Below are positions 14,328 to 19,353 of a stretch of 33,910 nucleotides of DNA, piece after piece. Both the position numbers and the translations under genes were made by a program. The stretch is from Thermoplasmatales archaeon. Its GTDB lineage: Archaea; Thermoplasmatota; Thermoplasmata; Thermoplasmatales; Thermoplasmataceae. The notes beneath the pieces were generated by a model. It was not told the origin of the DNA. It was given only the letters and a program-made list of their open reading frames with translations, and did not search any database. The stretch is taken from the NCBI GenBank assembly GCA_026127925.1, contig JAJSLM010000011.1, positions 1 through 33,910 of the forward strand, in the 5' to 3' direction. The stretch's first letter is position 1; each line of letters opens with the position of its first letter.

Positions 14328-14555
14328 TCATATTACAATATGCGTGGTATCATTGATTACCAATGCGGCAATTATGCCTGCTTTTTGTTTTTTATCGCCT
14401 ATTTCTATATCTCTTGAATAGACAACAACATCCCAATAACCCTGATTTAATTTTGCGGATGCAATCCTAGCTGGTCCTTCTATATCCAAATCTTTAAGGT
14501 GCCTTTCAACAATGAGTCTCACATCTTTAACGTCCATCTGGATTTCTTGACCCAT
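14328..14555 (-). CDS. Small uncharacterised protein (75 aa), paralogue of the broken copy at 18938-19149
   Basis: ATG at 14553-14555. The protein begins MGQEIQMDVKDVRLIVERHL, with a helix-then-strands pattern and a C-terminal AALVINDTT segment that recalls PepSY-like small domains; no function is recognised. Most of the gene and its upstream region are duplicated at the other end of the island, where the copy has lost about 40 bases and is dead. In that copy the frame continues beyond DTT into different residues, so the present C-terminus (HIVI) was probably created at a recombination junction. Confidence 0.6.
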   Translation of the reverse strand: MGQEIQMDVKDVRLIVERHLKDLDIEGPARIASAKLNQGYWDVVVYSRDIEIGDKKQKAGIIAALVINDTTHIVI

Positions 14556-14702
14556 GGTATATATGTTATAGTAAGTTTAATAAACATTATTTTGGATTCT
14601 AATCAATAGATTTTCTCTTGAAAATACAATATGAGAGGAAAGTTTAAGCATTGAAAAATATAATTATCTTCAAGATATTATATTTATTGGCCCGACCGGA
14701 TT
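14344..14702. repeat. Left direct repeat of the island (copy A), ending in a tRNA-Val 3' fragment
   Basis: Matches 18975-19297 at roughly 85-90 percent by eye, apart from about 40 bases missing in the other copy. It contains the small gene, its upstream region and, at its right end (14688-14702), TGGCCCGACCGGATT, which is the acceptor and T-arm end of the tRNA-Val gene with mismatches. Past that point the tRNA similarity stops. Confidence 0.85.
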
Positions 14703-14759
14703 TATTCAACATATTGAGAGACTATTGGGTCACTCAGAGTTTCAACTGAAGCGCAAAGG

Positions 14760-14784
14760 TTTATACCTATTATTCTATTATAAA
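14760..14784 (+). promoter_or_regulatory. hicBA promoter with inverted arms
   Basis: TTTATA (14760-14765) and TATAAA (14779-14784) are inverted arms. The first arm is placed as a TATA box about 25 bases before the HicB ATG, implying a leaderless transcript. Symmetric arms here could bind HicB, as other HicB antitoxins repress their own promoters. Confidence 0.4.
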
Positions 14785-14788
14785 AGTA

Positions 14789-14980
14789 ATGCGATTTACA
14801 GTAGTCATGGAGAAGGATGAAGATGGAATATATGTGGTTACAGTTCCAGCTTTGCCTGGGTGCATATCTGACGGGCGCACGGTAGAAGAGGCCATGTCAA
14901 ACATTGACGACATGAATGCAGATGGAGAGGCCATTCCCCACGATATTGATATCATTGGAAACATTGAACTCAATGCCTAA
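14789..14980 (+). CDS. hicB: HicB-family antitoxin, apparently shortened
   Basis: 63 residues. The N-terminus RFTVVMEKDEDGIYVVTVPA and the following LPGCISDGRTVEEAMSNI are the HicB RNase-H-like fold, and the C-terminus DGEAIPHDIDIIGNIELNA is also standard. Between them, the helix normally reading like 'KEAIxLYL' is missing: NI runs directly into DDMNADGE. The frame is kept, so about eight codons seem deleted. Loss of this helix may impair folding or toxin neutralisation. The stop codon overlaps the hicA start by 8 bases, and the antitoxin-first order is common for this pair. Confidence 0.85.
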   Translation: MRFTVVMEKDEDGIYVVTVPALPGCISDGRTVEEAMSNIDDMNADGEAIPHDIDIIGNIELNA

Positions 14981-15194
14981 ACTTCCCTCTATTTCTGGAA
15001 AAGATACCGTGAAAGCTCTCTCTAAAGTTGGATTTAGATTCAGGAGACAGGTTGGAAGTCATATGATACTGAAGAGGGAATCAGATGGAAAGAGGGTGGC
15101 AATTCCAAACCATGATGAATTGCCAAAGGGCACTCTCAGAGCAATAATTAGGCAGTGCGATCTTACTGTAGAGGAATTCATAAAGTTACTGTAA
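14973..15194 (+). CDS. hicA: HicA-family mRNA interferase toxin
   Basis: 73 residues from ATG 14973, which starts the conserved MPKLPSISGKDTVKALSKVG. The catalytic histidine is in RQVGSHMILKR, and the double-stranded-RNA-binding-like fold is complete through 'LRAIIRQCDLTVEEFIKLL'. An upstream in-frame ATG at 14916 lies inside hicB and gives an atypical N-terminus, so 14973 is preferred. HicA cleaves mRNA and is held in check by HicB. Normal length and intact His suggest an active toxin, unlike its altered partner. Confidence 0.9.
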   Translation: MPKLPSISGKDTVKALSKVGFRFRRQVGSHMILKRESDGKRVAIPNHDELPKGTLRAIIRQCDLTVEEFIKLL

Positions 15195-15290
15195 ACTGTA
15201 GTAATCTTATAACTGCAGATATTTTGCAAGGTCCTCATGAATATTTGTGCAAAACTCGGTTTTTAATTTATGAAGGAGGGTAGAAGCAAG

Positions 15291-15692
15291 TCATTCGATT
15301 GGTATCAACAGAAAAAGTTCTTTCTCGCTCCTATAGAATTCAATAATGTACCTTTCAGGATCAACTAAATTATCAGCAGATACTTTATCGATGATTAACG
15401 GTATCTGACCCAGGTTTTTCTTCCAGTCTGCAATTCTTTCTCTGACATATTTTCCTTTTGGTAAATCTACTTCCTGGAGTCCGGGGGCGTTTATATTATC
15501 GCCATCTTCAATTTTAACACACGCTAAATAAGTTAGTTTGTTATTTTCCAGTTTCGATAACCCATAGAACTTTTTCTTCTTTAGTGTGGAGAGATTATTC
15601 TCCAGCAGATCAAACGTCTGTTCAGCAGTTAGAGGACCTTTGAGAGATTTGAGGCACATTAGATTTAGGTTAGAACTAAGTTCGTATTTCAT
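15291..15692 (-). CDS. GyrI-like/effector-binding domain protein
   Basis: 133 residues from the ATG at 15690-15692. The sequence MKYELSSNLNLMCLKSLKGP, a central 'GKYVRERIADWKKNLGQIP' and the final 'DPERYIIEFYRSEKELFLLI' resemble the SHS2-type effector domain of GyrI/BmrR C-termini, which binds small aromatic or cationic compounds. No DNA-binding domain is attached. A TATA box (GATATATAAAAAT on the minus strand) centred near 15720 fits a leaderless start at 15692 better than the in-frame ATG at 15701. It is divergent from an ArsR-like gene, which may supply the DNA-binding half of the response. Confidence 0.6.
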   Translation of the reverse strand: MKYELSSNLNLMCLKSLKGPLTAEQTFDLLENNLSTLKKKKFYGLSKLENNKLTYLACVKIEDGDNINAPGLQEVDLPKGKYVRERIADWKKNLGQIPLIIDKVSADNLVDPERYIIEFYRSEKELFLLIPIE

Positions 15693-15762
15693 GAATATCA
15701 TCTTTGGATTGGATTTTTATATATCACATTTTCCAGCTATTTTGTGAGAATTTTTCACCTTT

Positions 15763-15780
15763 CGGTAATAATTATAACCG
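15763..15780. promoter_or_regulatory. Candidate operator between GyrI-like and ArsR-like genes
   Basis: CGGTAATAATTATAACCG is symmetric at 16 of 18 positions. It lies between the divergent starts and overlaps the AT-rich box about 45 bases before the ArsR-like ATG (15819), where a winged-helix dimer could control both genes. Confidence 0.45.
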
Positions 15781-15818
15781 AAATCGCTATAAGGCATGAG
15801 AAAGAAAAGGTAAACTGC

Positions 15819-16118
15819 ATGAGAGATTACACCAGTGAGGAGAAATTATTTTCAGCTCTTGCATCTTCTGTAAGACTTAAAATTCTGGACTCAATTTCCA
15901 ATGGATTTGCAAATCCTGGAGAGATTGCAGAAAAACTCAACAGGCATCGTTCGTCAATCGAAAAACATTTGAACATCCTGGTTGTTGCAGGAATAATAGA
16001 AAAAGAGCCTTCGCTGAACAAAAAGGGTCAATTATCAGTCAAATACAGGATTAAGGCCGATTTGTCAGAATTGCTTTCATTTGCCAACGGGATTATTAAA
16101 GTACAGAACGGGAACTAA
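15819..16118 (+). CDS. ArsR-like winged-helix regulator
   Basis: 99 residues from ATG 15819, chosen because MRDYTSEEKLFSALASSVRL is the usual ArsR beginning and an AAAAGG sits just upstream; the longer in-frame ATG at 15744 adds unlikely residues. The helix-turn-helix is 'NPGEIAEKLNRHRSSIEKHL', followed by a wing ending in SVKYRIK. No metal-binding cysteines are present (cysteine is absent from this form), so it probably senses something other than metals. Divergent from the GyrI-like gene across a symmetric site. Confidence 0.8.
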   Translation: MRDYTSEEKLFSALASSVRLKILDSISNGFANPGEIAEKLNRHRSSIEKHLNILVVAGIIEKEPSLNKKGQLSVKYRIKADLSELLSFANGIIKVQNGN

Positions 16119-16422
16119 AATCATTTCGTAAGGGAAATGCCCTAAGTTCAATTTCTCCCTAAGATAAACATGGTTCTGGAACGTTGAATTAATTTGAGGA
16201 TGGTGCGGAGATTTAGTGTTGCATATGGTGGAACTAATAATTAACTTGATGTTGACTGTGAGCTTGTTAGCTAAATCGTCAAATCCTCTTTTTACTCATA
16301 AGAAAGCAAGACTCATTTATATCTGTAAATGGGCTCGACCAGACTTTATTATAGGTGTAATCAAGTCCAAGATGGAATGTGTAAACCCAATTGCAATAGT
16401 TACCGCAAAACACCCGTTATAT
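16119..16422. other. 304-base gap holding a third tRNA-Val 3'-end match
   Basis: The region separates the ArsR-like gene from the 3' end of the exporter. Apart from ATGGGCTCGACC at 16329-16340 (see that repeat entry), I find no gene; the open frames are short and give no recognisable protein. Confidence 0.5.
16329..16340. repeat. Third copy of the tRNA-Val 3' end (att-like core)
   Basis: ATGGGCTCGACC is identical to 19281-19292, the acceptor end of the tRNA-Val gene with one flanking base, in the same orientation. The next bases (AGACTT against GGATTC) diverge. A 12-base exact match in a window of this size is unlikely by chance (expected well under 0.01). Confidence 0.55.
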
Positions 16423-17952
16423 CTACGGTTTCTGGGTTTTATCTTTAAATTCACGAGACATGTGTGGAAGACGGCCATAGATGAAGAATGCCGAAATTAT
16501 AGTGAATGAGGACAGAATGAACAGAATGAGGAAAGATTCCTGTATAGCAGAAGACATTGCTATGGCATTAATTCCGTATTTGCCTGGATTCGTAGAAGTC
16601 ACATGGCTCATCAAGTCCAGTTCTTTATATCTAGAATAGATAAATGCAGTCAGGATAGAGAGGATAACGCTTCCTCCCATATTGCCCATAAATTGTACAA
16701 TAGAACTTGACGCACCAATATCACGTGGTTCTGCTGAGTACTGCGCCGAAAGAGTTGTGGCAGCCATCGTAAATCCAATGCCAAAGCCTATGGGGATCAG
16801 CCCCTCCACCAAGCCTAAGACAGGAAATGGGCCCACAAATATATAGGGTTGTATACTCGGCGACATTTTTAGAAGGGGCAGAAACCCCAGTGCCATGCAA
16901 ATCGTCCCGACAATGCAAAAAAACCTGTAAGATAGCTTTGGCAATAAAATCCCTCCAAGCATTGACCCCATCACCATTGGAACGACGAAACCGTACAGAA
17001 CGTTTCTGAGCATATTTGATGTCCCGAAAAGAACCTCCGTTACAAATATGGCGATGAATGTGCTAAGGGAAAAAAGAACTCCGCCACGAAAGAAACTAAG
17101 AAAACTGTCTGAAACTATCGTTTTATGCCTGAACATTCTGAGAGGTATAACCGGCTCTTCCGCAACCTGCATTTCCACTAGCAAGAAGAAGGCCAATAAT
17201 ATCAGGCCGAATACAAAAAAGGCAATAGTCATGGGATCTCTCAGGGACCATCCGGAATATGCCATTTCTATTAAGGGGAATGTCAGAAGTGAGACCCATG
17301 AAACAAGAAGAATGGAACCCAAATAATCAAACTTTCCACGCAAACTGGGTTTTAGTGGGCTCAGTAAAAACCATACAAGAATGAAAGAGACTATGCCGAA
17401 CGGAATATTCACATAAAAAACCCATCTCCAGCTTGTCGTATCAACGATGAATGCTCCAATTTCAGGGCCAGCCACAATGGCAATCCCAATGAAGCTGGTT
17501 ACAGCACCAGTCAGTTTAGCCCGTGCACTTGGAGGTAGAACCACTGCAATCACTGCGAGTCCTACGGGCAGAAATCCACCGCTTCCAAGACCCTGAACTG
17601 CCCTGAACCCAATCAATTCTGGTAGATTCTGACTCAATCCTGCCAAGATTGAACCTATGATGAAGATAACTAATGTTGCCAGAAGAATTATTCTCTTACT
17701 GAAGTGGTCGGAAAGTTTCCCAAATATAACCATCCCGATCGCGGATGAAGTAATATAAGCATCAATCAGGAAAGCAAGACCATTGGGCTGGTGTAACGCG
17801 CCAACTATGGCTGGCATTGCGGTTGTTACAATAAGATTGTCGAGAGCACCCATTAGCACCCCCATTACAATTGCGACCGTTATTAGATAAGGGTGACTTG
17901 TGGATTGCATTCTTTTATTAATTTCGTTACCTCGATTCTCATCAAGAGACAC
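16423..17952 (-). CDS. MFS drug exporter, DHA2 family (EmrB/QacA-like, 14 TM)
   Basis: 509 residues with fourteen predicted membrane segments. Family motifs: GALDNLIVTTAMPAIV in TM1, GKLSDHFSKR after TM2, FRAVQGLGSGGFLPVG in TM4, and GPEIGAFIVDTTSWRWVF with VNIPFG around TM5. These proton antiporters expel cationic or lipophilic drugs. The start is GTG at 17950-17952, placed directly after the MarR stop codon with no spacer, so the two are co-translated and the exporter is under MarR control. The pair lies within the tRNA-associated island and is likely horizontally acquired. Confidence 0.92.
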   Translation of the reverse strand: MSLDENRGNEINKRMQSTSHPYLITVAIVMGVLMGALDNLIVTTAMPAIVGALHQPNGLAFLIDAYITSSAIGMVIFGKLSDHFSKRIILLATLVIFIIGSILAGLSQNLPELIGFRAVQGLGSGGFLPVGLAVIAVVLPPSARAKLTGAVTSFIGIAIVAGPEIGAFIVDTTSWRWVFYVNIPFGIVSFILVWFLLSPLKPSLRGKFDYLGSILLVSWVSLLTFPLIEMAYSGWSLRDPMTIAFFVFGLILLAFFLLVEMQVAEEPVIPLRMFRHKTIVSDSFLSFFRGGVLFSLSTFIAIFVTEVLFGTSNMLRNVLYGFVVPMVMGSMLGGILLPKLSYRFFCIVGTICMALGFLPLLKMSPSIQPYIFVGPFPVLGLVEGLIPIGFGIGFTMAATTLSAQYSAEPRDIGASSSIVQFMGNMGGSVILSILTAFIYSRYKELDLMSHVTSTNPGKYGINAIAMSSAIQESFLILFILSSFTIISAFFIYGRLPHMSREFKDKTQKP

Positions 17953-18435
17953 TTATTCACTATCCGTTTTCTCCAGATTGCCCAGTACCTTTACCATAGT
18001 TGAAATAATTCTAGAGAATGCACTCATATCTTCAATATTTAGTGACTTCTCAAGTTTCTCTGTCATTGACTGTTGCATTTTCTGATACTTCAGAAGCCTC
18101 TCTTTTCCATTTTCTGAGATTGATATCTCAACTTTCCTCCTGTCTTTGTCGCTTCTGATCCTATATATATAATTTAATGCAATCAATCCATCTAGTAGAT
18201 CAGTGATACTAGGGAGGGTCGTCCCTGAATAGGAAGATATCTCTTTGGGGGAGATTTCTTTTCGCATAGATATCACTTGCAATGCCCACGCCTGCGGTAA
18301 TGTAAGTTGTGCCTTTCTCGCATTTATCTTGGAAATTTTCGTGAATTTTGATATCAGCGTTCCAAAATCTGTCCAAACTCCCTCAAAACTTTCAACTCTG
18401 TTGTTGAATAACTTATCCTGCCCCTTTCTTGACAT
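17953..18435 (-). CDS. MarR-family transcriptional repressor
   Basis: 160 residues. Winged helix: 'ISPKEISSYSGTTLPSITDL' followed by the wing 'RIRSDKDRRKVEISISENGK', in which the D-x-R-R-x motif is diagnostic of MarR. MarR proteins are dimeric repressors released by the drugs that their neighbour exports. Two tandem palindromes lie 2-30 bases before the ATG, between it and a TATA-like AAATATATTTAG. Binding there would block transcription of both genes, so autoregulation is very likely. Confidence 0.92.
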   Translation of the reverse strand: MSRKGQDKLFNNRVESFEGVWTDFGTLISKFTKISKINARKAQLTLPQAWALQVISMRKEISPKEISSYSGTTLPSITDLLDGLIALNYIYRIRSDKDRRKVEISISENGKERLLKYQKMQQSMTEKLEKSLNIEDMSAFSRIISTMVKVLGNLEKTDSE

Positions 18436-18436
18436 A

Positions 18437-18465
18437 TTAGGTAACCTAATAGTTAGGTATCCTAA
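18437..18465. promoter_or_regulatory. Tandem MarR operators
   Basis: TTAGGTAACCTAA (18437-18449) and TTAGGTATCCTAA (18453-18465) are perfect 13-base palindromes around a central base. Their centres are 16 bases apart (about 1.5 helical turns). They fill the space between the TATA box and the marR start codon. Confidence 0.75.
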
Positions 18466-18563
18466 ATATATTTCTATTCACGACAAACCTTACTTTTATA
18501 TAGAACTGGAAAAGCGAAACTGAAAATTGGTTTCTTCTTGTTTTTTTAAGAATAACCGGATAT

Positions 18564-18923
18564 TCAGATCCGCATAGTATCAGTTCTGAAGTCCAATTTC
18601 AATCCAATCATTTGAAGTATTTCTACTCCAATTATGGCTGGAAAATCTATATTTTCGAGAATTATGAATTCCGGTTCAGAAACGATAACCCCGTTCAGTT
18701 TTAGATTCTCGAATGTCAGGGAACCGTGCAATTCTCTGATGGACAACCCTGGAATTGAAACGGGAATTTCACCGTAAGATACAAATCCAAGTTGTTCTGG
18801 CCTGATTCCATTGGGCAATACAACACCGATATAGTTCCCTTCAGCTCCAGAATCTATCAAAGCGGAGACTTTGACACTCTTGATTGTGCCCTTTATTTCA
18901 ATCTAATCGATGATCAATCCCAT
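18564..18923 (-). pseudogene. Clan AA (retropepsin-like) aspartic protease, with in-frame amber codon
   Basis: From ATG 18921-18923 the frame reads MGLIID, then TAG (18903-18905), then IEIKGTIKSVKVSALIDSGA and on to the end (RTDTMRI). ALIDSGAEGNYIG is the active-site D-S/T-G-A motif, and 'FPAIIGVEILQMIGLKLDF' is the second conserved element. The family consists of about 110-120-residue single-domain proteases in prokaryotes. Skipping the N-terminal strand by starting at the TTG at 18860 would remove part of the fold, so I favour a recently broken gene. Amber readthrough or an ATT/ATA start after the TAG cannot be excluded. Confidence 0.65.
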
Positions 18924-18937
18924 GTGAAAAAGCGTCC

Positions 18938-19149
18938 TTATGTTGGGTTCTCTTTGAACGCCTCAACTTTTCTGGTGGTATCATTGATTACCAATGCAGC
19001 AATTATACCTGTCTTTTGCTTCTTATCTCCAACTTCTATGTCTCTTGAATAGACAACAACAACACTCCAATAACCCTGATTGAATTTTGCGGATGCAATT
19101 CAACGGTGAGTCTCACATCTTTAATGTCCATCTGGATTTCTTGATCCAT
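18938..19149 (-). pseudogene. Broken copy of the 75-aa small protein
   Basis: ATG at 19147-19149 starts MDQEIQMDIKDVRLTVE, closely matching the intact gene at 14328-14555. Then about 40 bases are missing and the frame shifts to an early stop. Past the lesion the old frame is still readable, as VINDTTRKVEAFKENPT to TAA at 18938-18940. That end is 15 bases before the ATG of the decayed protease, so the ancestral arrangement was small protein followed by protease. Confidence 0.75.
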
Positions 19150-19297
19150 AGCATACATATTATAGTAGGTTTAATAAACATTGTTTTGGATTCCAATCAA
19201 TAGATTTTCTCTTGAAAATACAATACGAGAGCAAGGTTGTAAGTTTTGAAAAATATAATTATATTTCAATCATTATATTTATGGGCTCGACCGGATT
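18975..19297. repeat. Right direct repeat of the island (copy B), running into the intact tRNA-Val
   Basis: Partner of 14344-14702 in the same orientation. The non-coding part between the small gene and the tRNA is conserved almost as well as the gene. The repeat ends inside the T-arm of the complete tRNA gene. Confidence 0.85.
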
Positions 19298-19353
19298 CGA
19301 ACCGGTGACCTCCTCCGTGTCAGGGAGACATCATACCGCTAGACTACGAGCCC
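19282..19353 (-). tRNA. tRNA-Val (GAC anticodon)
   Basis: Minus strand. Acceptor stem GGGCTCG pairs with CGAGCCC; discriminator A; anticodon stem TCTCC/GGAGG around loop CTGACAC, giving anticodon GAC; T-arm ACCGG-TTCGAAT-CCGGT is perfect. 72 bases, no intron, CCA not encoded (TAA follows the discriminator). Its 3' end is the sequence repeated at 14688-14702 and 16329-16340, marking it as an integration target. Confidence 0.95.

Follow-up and report, generated by a model that had tools for sequence, protein, structure and literature searches.

Why does one stretch of an archaeal genome carry the same small gene twice, once directly before a dead protease gene and once with no protease after it? 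The stretch, referred to here as the window, is the entire contig G000:C11 (33,910 nucleotides) of a 1.73 Mb genome. The host is an acid-loving archaeon, and its close relatives are genomes of Thermoplasmata from metagenomes, including one with the label E-plasma. Three matters had to be settled: whether the two genes form a genuine unit, how they came to be duplicated, and what they might do together.

Two damaged copies next to a tRNA gene

At the right-hand copy the genes lie on the minus strand in the order small gene (18938..19149), TAA stop, 14 nt, and ATG of a clan AA (retropepsin-like) aspartic protease gene (18564..18923). The small gene encodes 83 aa in relatives and has kept its characteristic end (ENPT followed by TAA); compared with those relatives, its frame is broken by a 40-nt deletion. 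The protease gene has 119 codons and keeps its DSGA and AIIG motifs. It is full length except for an amber codon at position 7 (MGLIID*), where relatives indicate a change from CAG to TAG. The first-pass annotation had correctly described the gene order and the damage to both genes; only its spacing of 15 nt has to be amended. Over the rest of the gene, the protease differs from that of genome G020 by only 2 non-synonymous and 8 synonymous changes, which marks the decay as recent.

The left-hand copy of the small gene (14328..14555, minus strand) is open over 75 aa and is not followed by a protease. It had been described as intact, separated from its protease and provided with a new C-terminus. 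The last two points hold, but the copy is not intact: comparison with eight relatives revealed one codon missing after W41/D42 and replacement of the last 10 or so residues (RKVEAFKENPT became HIVI). With this C-terminus gone, the fourth and last predicted strand (residues 75-80) is lost. Constraint on this copy is nevertheless not clearly relaxed (dN/dS 0.098/0.61 against G020).

Conservation of the pair in relatives

The small protein was detected in 12 of 61 nearby genomes, one of these (L013) being a chance-level match, and at 17 GTDB loci. Among loci with long enough DNA and intact genes, 14 of 14 distinct complete pairs of the close family consisted of an 83-residue protein, 12 to 14 nt and a 119-residue protease. 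These pairs come from 13 genomes (G012, G020, G021, G263, G016, G003, G029, G266, G570, G575, G032, G054 and G574), since G574 carries two in tandem; the G003 and G029 pairs do not differ from each other, owing to recent transfer.

Pairing extends beyond close homology. Six divergent proteases (L162, L164, L165, L166, L169 and L170) lie beyond the reach of the small-protein search; 6 to 18 nt upstream of every one of them ends an alpha+beta protein about 78 to 93 aa long. The divergent partners share a pattern consisting of a helix, R-I...A, W-x-V-x-I/V-x-Y and then a D-x-TG-like turn. As a control, a same-strand ORF of 50 to 110 aa was present just upstream of 14 of 97 long genes at the same loci. 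Both genes of the pair are under purifying selection (median dN/dS 0.124 and 0.166), and their divergences are correlated (r = 0.93).

We conclude that the small protein and the virus-like aspartic protease are a true, widely conserved two-gene unit. A two-gene module had been suspected from the window, with the proviso that homologues of the small protein should not rarely lie next to such proteases. At complete loci of the close family the protease always directly follows, at the spacing given above, and the six divergent versions agree. The pair also has the arrangement typical of type II toxin-antitoxin systems, that is, two small, adjacent and co-oriented genes. New relative to the first-pass annotation are the damage to the left copy, the origin of the duplication in tRNA cassettes (see below) and the pairing beyond close homology.

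Class and fold of the two proteins

In the protease, the LIDSGA and AIIG motifs were invariant or nearly so across 12 sequences. Its AF2 model (pLDDT 79) was closest in the PDB to Ddi1 protease domains (E = 1e-5), followed by Rickettsia APRc (2e-4) and HIV-1 PR (7e-4). Sequence profiles also point to clan AA, with scores under curated cut-offs; the TIGR03698 scores of 21.0 and 17.7 bits, against a cut-off of 57.35 bits, place the enzyme outside that family proper. As the modelled fold and the sequence profiles agree, membership of clan AA is well supported. The enzyme resembles the TIGR03698 (clan_AA_DTGF) and Pfam Asp_protease_2 groups in its D-S/T-G-A motif, its hydrophobic-hydrophobic-Gly motif, its full-length alignment and its retropepsin-like fold. 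It departs from them in that close-family members score under the curated cut-offs, and in having a fixed upstream cystatin-like partner for which there is no Pfam or NCBIfam model. A viral origin of the pair was considered and rejected, no relatives of either protein being found in IMG/VR at the sensitivity used. One island that contains an intact pair also encodes a second, two-stretch aspartyl protease of 273 aa (L040:6243-7064; Pfam Asp_protease_2, 1e-14).

The small partner is modelled as one helix and four strands (alpha-beta4) with a pLDDT of 87.8. Its best PDB match is a designed cystatin fold, and a weak one (E = 0.014, TM about 0.5); NTF2-like proteins and affimers are its other nearest solved folds, none of them with E < 0.001. 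The model thus hints at a cystatin-like fold, through a weak match that is compatible with other roles as well. No known family was recovered for the protein in Pfam, NCBIfam, PADLOC or PDB sequences, either singly or as a 10-member profile, and two candidate relatives, PerC and rhamnogalacturonate lyase, were discarded as chance-level matches. In genus g21, a conserved relative of the small partner (82 to 87 aa) lies just upstream of a threonyl-tRNA synthetase-like gene (L188, L189, L190, L191, L192 and L197). Since these distant relatives adjoin such a gene and not a protease, the fold of the partner is not protease-specific.

Cassettes bordered by tRNA 3' ends

The two copies of the small gene belong to a repeat of about 360 bp, some 87 to 89% alike, which takes in the last 15 or so nucleotides of a tRNA-Val gene (14688-14702 compared to 19283-19297). 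Because the repeat spans the tRNA 3' end, it is to be read as the duplication of an attachment site and not as a free-standing gene duplication. The tRNA-Val (GAC) gene itself is intact (19282..19353, minus strand), and its 3' end forms the attachment-like sequence AATCCGGTCGAGCCC (19283..19297, minus strand). Attachment-like 13-mers at 19283, 16331 and 14688, all on the minus strand, split the region into two cassettes lying in tandem between the tRNA and its displaced 3' end; when the window was shuffled 100 times, three such sites never occurred.

Cassette A holds the small gene, the protease, a MarR-type regulator (17953..18435, minus strand) and an MFS (EmrB/DHA2-type) efflux pump (16423..17952, minus strand), and ends with a 13-mer and its preceding arm, GGACTTGATTACACCTATAATAAAG (16331..16367, minus strand). 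Cassette B, also found at L154, comprises an ArsR-type regulator (15744..16118, plus strand), a GyrI-like/Cass2-like ligand-binding protein with weak Pfam matches (15291..15701, minus strand) and HicBA toxin-antitoxin genes (14789..15194, plus strand; HicB-like 14789-14980, HicA 14916-15194). Its end is the displaced 15-nt remnant AATCCGGTCGGGCCA (14688..14702, minus strand). An intact tRNA at one end and a displaced 3' fragment at the other are the mark of a tRNA-targeted element; no integrase gene was found within 14700-19282.

Relatives of the pair are similarly placed: the unit begins right behind a tRNA-Val or, at L018, a tRNA-Ile that is intact, or else behind a 13 to 15 nt remnant of tRNA-Val. 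Forty-eight of 77 relatives have members of a tyrosine-recombinase (integrase) family, at one to seven copies per genome. At most inspected loci (L122, L123 and most of L124-L148) it lies directly downstream of a tRNA gene for Val, Ala, Leu, Pro, Gln or Cys. The arm GGACTTGATTACACCTATAATAAAG corresponds, at L122 and L123, to the stretch between the integrase gene and its attachment site. There the recombinase is turned towards the site from the opposite side, across a GGACTT...AAGTCC arm. Genome G012 (L154), which is complete, has one tRNA-Val that is followed by cassette B, an attachment site, an integrase element roughly 13.7 kb long, another attachment site and the pair.

Recent transfer is indicated by a block of 8431 bp that is 99.7% identical between G003 and G029, two genomes of different genera (L019:2531-10960 and L020:5247-13677). 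Attachment-like sites lie at the ends of this block, and in L020 a tRNA 3'-end-like sequence is found at both ends. Part of the identity could come from mis-binning of the 13.8-kb G029 contig; the flanks differ between the two genomes, which argues for a separate insertion. The tRNA 3'-end borders and this block together support mobility of the unit, for which a test had been suggested from the window.

The simplest account is probably tandem integration, in which both window cassettes, being without integrase, would have been inserted or moved either in trans, by integrases that complete elements supplied, or through recombination between elements lying in tandem. It is from the borders alone that we infer a supply of integrase in trans, and homologous recombination between tandem elements could also explain the mosaic. 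Archaeal elements with tyrosine recombinases are known to use tRNA 3' ends as attachment sites, to integrate in tandem at one locus and to exchange modules (PMC8371274). The window shares these three features; its cassettes differ in being only 1.6 and 3 kb long and devoid of integrase, cassette A retaining only the integrase-proximal arm. This anatomy illustrates clearly how tRNA-borne units that lack an integrase shuffle among the archaea of acid mines.

Other protease-partner pairings in the phylum

Among TIGR03698-like proteases across the phylum, about 16 of 23 had an ORF of 60 to 85 aa immediately upstream, counts that are not phylogenetically independent. Eleven of these ORFs come from one Thermoplasmatota family, and the one tested matched DUF5678 (PF18929, 4.9e-8). 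The loci of this type are L087, L088, L089, L092, L094, L095, L097, L100, L102, L103 and L104. All 11 readable loci of that family, which is another one than that of the window, have a protein of 63 to 64 aa directly before the retropepsin-like protease. The DUF5678 pairs resemble the window pair in that a small gene immediately precedes a clan AA protease, but the partner belongs to a different family. L105 and L107 have in common a further, unnamed partner type. We found no paper on a pairing between DUF5678 and a retropepsin-like protease.

Systems already described offer partial likenesses. Pseudomonas RimB and RloA are retropepsin-like proteases of small operons with regulatory partners (PMC11957791, PMC12239564). 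RimA is a cyclic-di-GMP phosphodiesterase, RimK and RloC are ATP-grasp proteins, and RloA is secreted (PMC11957791, PMC12239564). These enzymes are prokaryotic and retropepsin-like, as is that of the window, but their systems have no small cystatin-like partner; RimA, being a phosphodiesterase according to the published paper, was rejected as a precedent for ours. The phage-defence candidates PDC-M08 and PDC-M52 of PADLOC are multi-gene systems whose B component resembles the window-type protease. The partners described here match no PADLOC model, and the PDC systems are themselves unproven candidates.

A fixed and separately conserved upstream partner, drawn from at least two families in one phylum, provides a testable handle on such enzymes: its role should reveal how they are regulated and for what reason they are found on mobile DNA. 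To our knowledge, few archaeal or bacterial single-domain aspartic proteases have an assigned function.

Possible role of the pair

Tight order, short spacing, joint conservation and joint decay suggest that the two proteins act together, and we infer the function of the pair as follows. By homology, the protease would be a single-domain clan AA enzyme active as a homodimer in the cytosol. The partner, made first, would bind it during synthesis and restrain or direct it; a TAAGGA sequence overlapping the stop codon of the small gene could serve as ribosome site. For a small soluble partner translated first, protease binding is the most likely role, and carrying the pair would presumably benefit the cassette. 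The best explanation of the locus is then that a conserved two-gene operon, whose partner probably binds the protease, travels on tRNA-Val-targeted integrative cassettes of Thermoplasmata, and that the right-hand pair is a copy of it that died recently. We hold this explanation to be evenly poised between right and wrong; it rests on the computed pairing, the purifying selection that acts on the two genes, the fold of the protease, the cassette borders and recent transfer. The relaxed constraint on the L045 protease, whose partner is cut by an insertion (see below), also favours it, whereas the weak fold match of the partner, the g21 relatives beside a gene other than a protease and the full-length protease that G026 keeps with a frameshifted partner count against it. 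A bolder version, which we propose tentatively and think doubtful as a whole, is a new class of mobile two-gene modules in which a cystatin-fold protein would block the activity of a retropepsin-like protease until stress or infection sets in. It would be the archaeal form of a wider pattern in which single-domain aspartic proteases of prokaryotes are accompanied by small upstream partners from several unrelated families (cystatin-like, DUF5678 and others), spread by integrase-less tRNA cassettes.

Other readings were weighed against this operon. The pair could be an addiction module stabilising the cassette, with the protease as toxin and the small protein as antitoxin; the first-pass annotation had suggested testing for such a pattern. 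The small gene does come first, 12 to 14 nt ahead of the protease, in a mobile setting beside HicBA, AbiEii, PIN and RelBE-like genes, and loss of the partner usually goes with a dead or altered protease (right copy of the window, L021, L046 and L045). At L045, for instance (G573 has the same sequence), an insertion removed the N-terminal half of the partner; the protease is full length, but its constraint is relaxed (dN/dS about 0.5), with changes at L22, A27 and D93, positions normally invariant or nearly so. In genome G026, however, the protease is full length although its partner carries a frameshift, and at G032:C63 it is the protease that is broken and the partner that is intact; each of these two situations was seen clearly once. 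Since one-sided losses run both ways, strict toxin-antitoxin behaviour is not accepted. Moreover, the small protein matches no known antitoxin, nor any other protein family. An addiction module is therefore a possible but doubtful explanation, and the toxin-antitoxin-like pattern is not demonstrated.

Antiviral defence, in which infection would free the protease from the small protein and the enzyme would then stop the infection by cleaving a protein of the host or the virus, seems unlikely. It is kept as a live rival because PDC-M08B and PDC-M52B weakly match the protease class (L061, 1.1e-4; L105 protease, 1.5e-5; L015, 1.9e-3; E = 1e-4 to 3e-3 for the PDC-M08 B model against the protease family), and because the island is of cargo type, with toxin-antitoxin genes. 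These PADLOC matches are weak, though, and the systems they belong to are candidates only (PMC11514479); no PADLOC match to the PDC-M08 A component was found among the cystatin-like small partners tested, and the commonest neighbour is an efflux pump and not a defence gene. That same neighbourhood raises a quite unlikely third reading, an accessory of MarR-MFS efflux whose protease would process or control the pump or its regulator under stress. Small gene, protease, MarR and MFS is indeed the commonest arrangement (window, L015, L018, L019, L022, L037 and the first copy of L039). Nevertheless, the pair occurs without MarR-MFS at L016 (next to TnpB), L017 (GNAT), L036 (AbiE), the second copy of L039 and the inspected divergent pairs. 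As to the origin of the two copies, a simple tandem duplication of the chromosomal DNA that lies downstream of tRNA-Val, followed by decay of both, would explain why upstream sequence and not just the gene is common to them. It was rejected as very improbable on account of the tRNA 3'-end border and of foreign similarity: the repeat stops where the tRNA ends on its 3' side, which is the pattern of integration, the right copy is nearer to G020, at 96% over the pair region, than to its left counterpart, at 88%, and the intervening island is found elsewhere with the same borders.

Further observations on the mobile genes

The HicB-like and HicA genes of cassette B have 65 nt in common. At 63 aa the HicB frame is short, and it seems to lack a middle stretch found at L019 and L036 (INPRIASLMF / KEAIRGF region), so the antitoxin may be truncated. 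The genome of the window has an integrase of its own next to tRNA-Cys, split between two frames (L155, G000:C1:433979-435239). Identity to the G569 enzyme is 97% in the C-terminal part and 53% in the N-terminal part, which suggests that this integrase is a mosaic.
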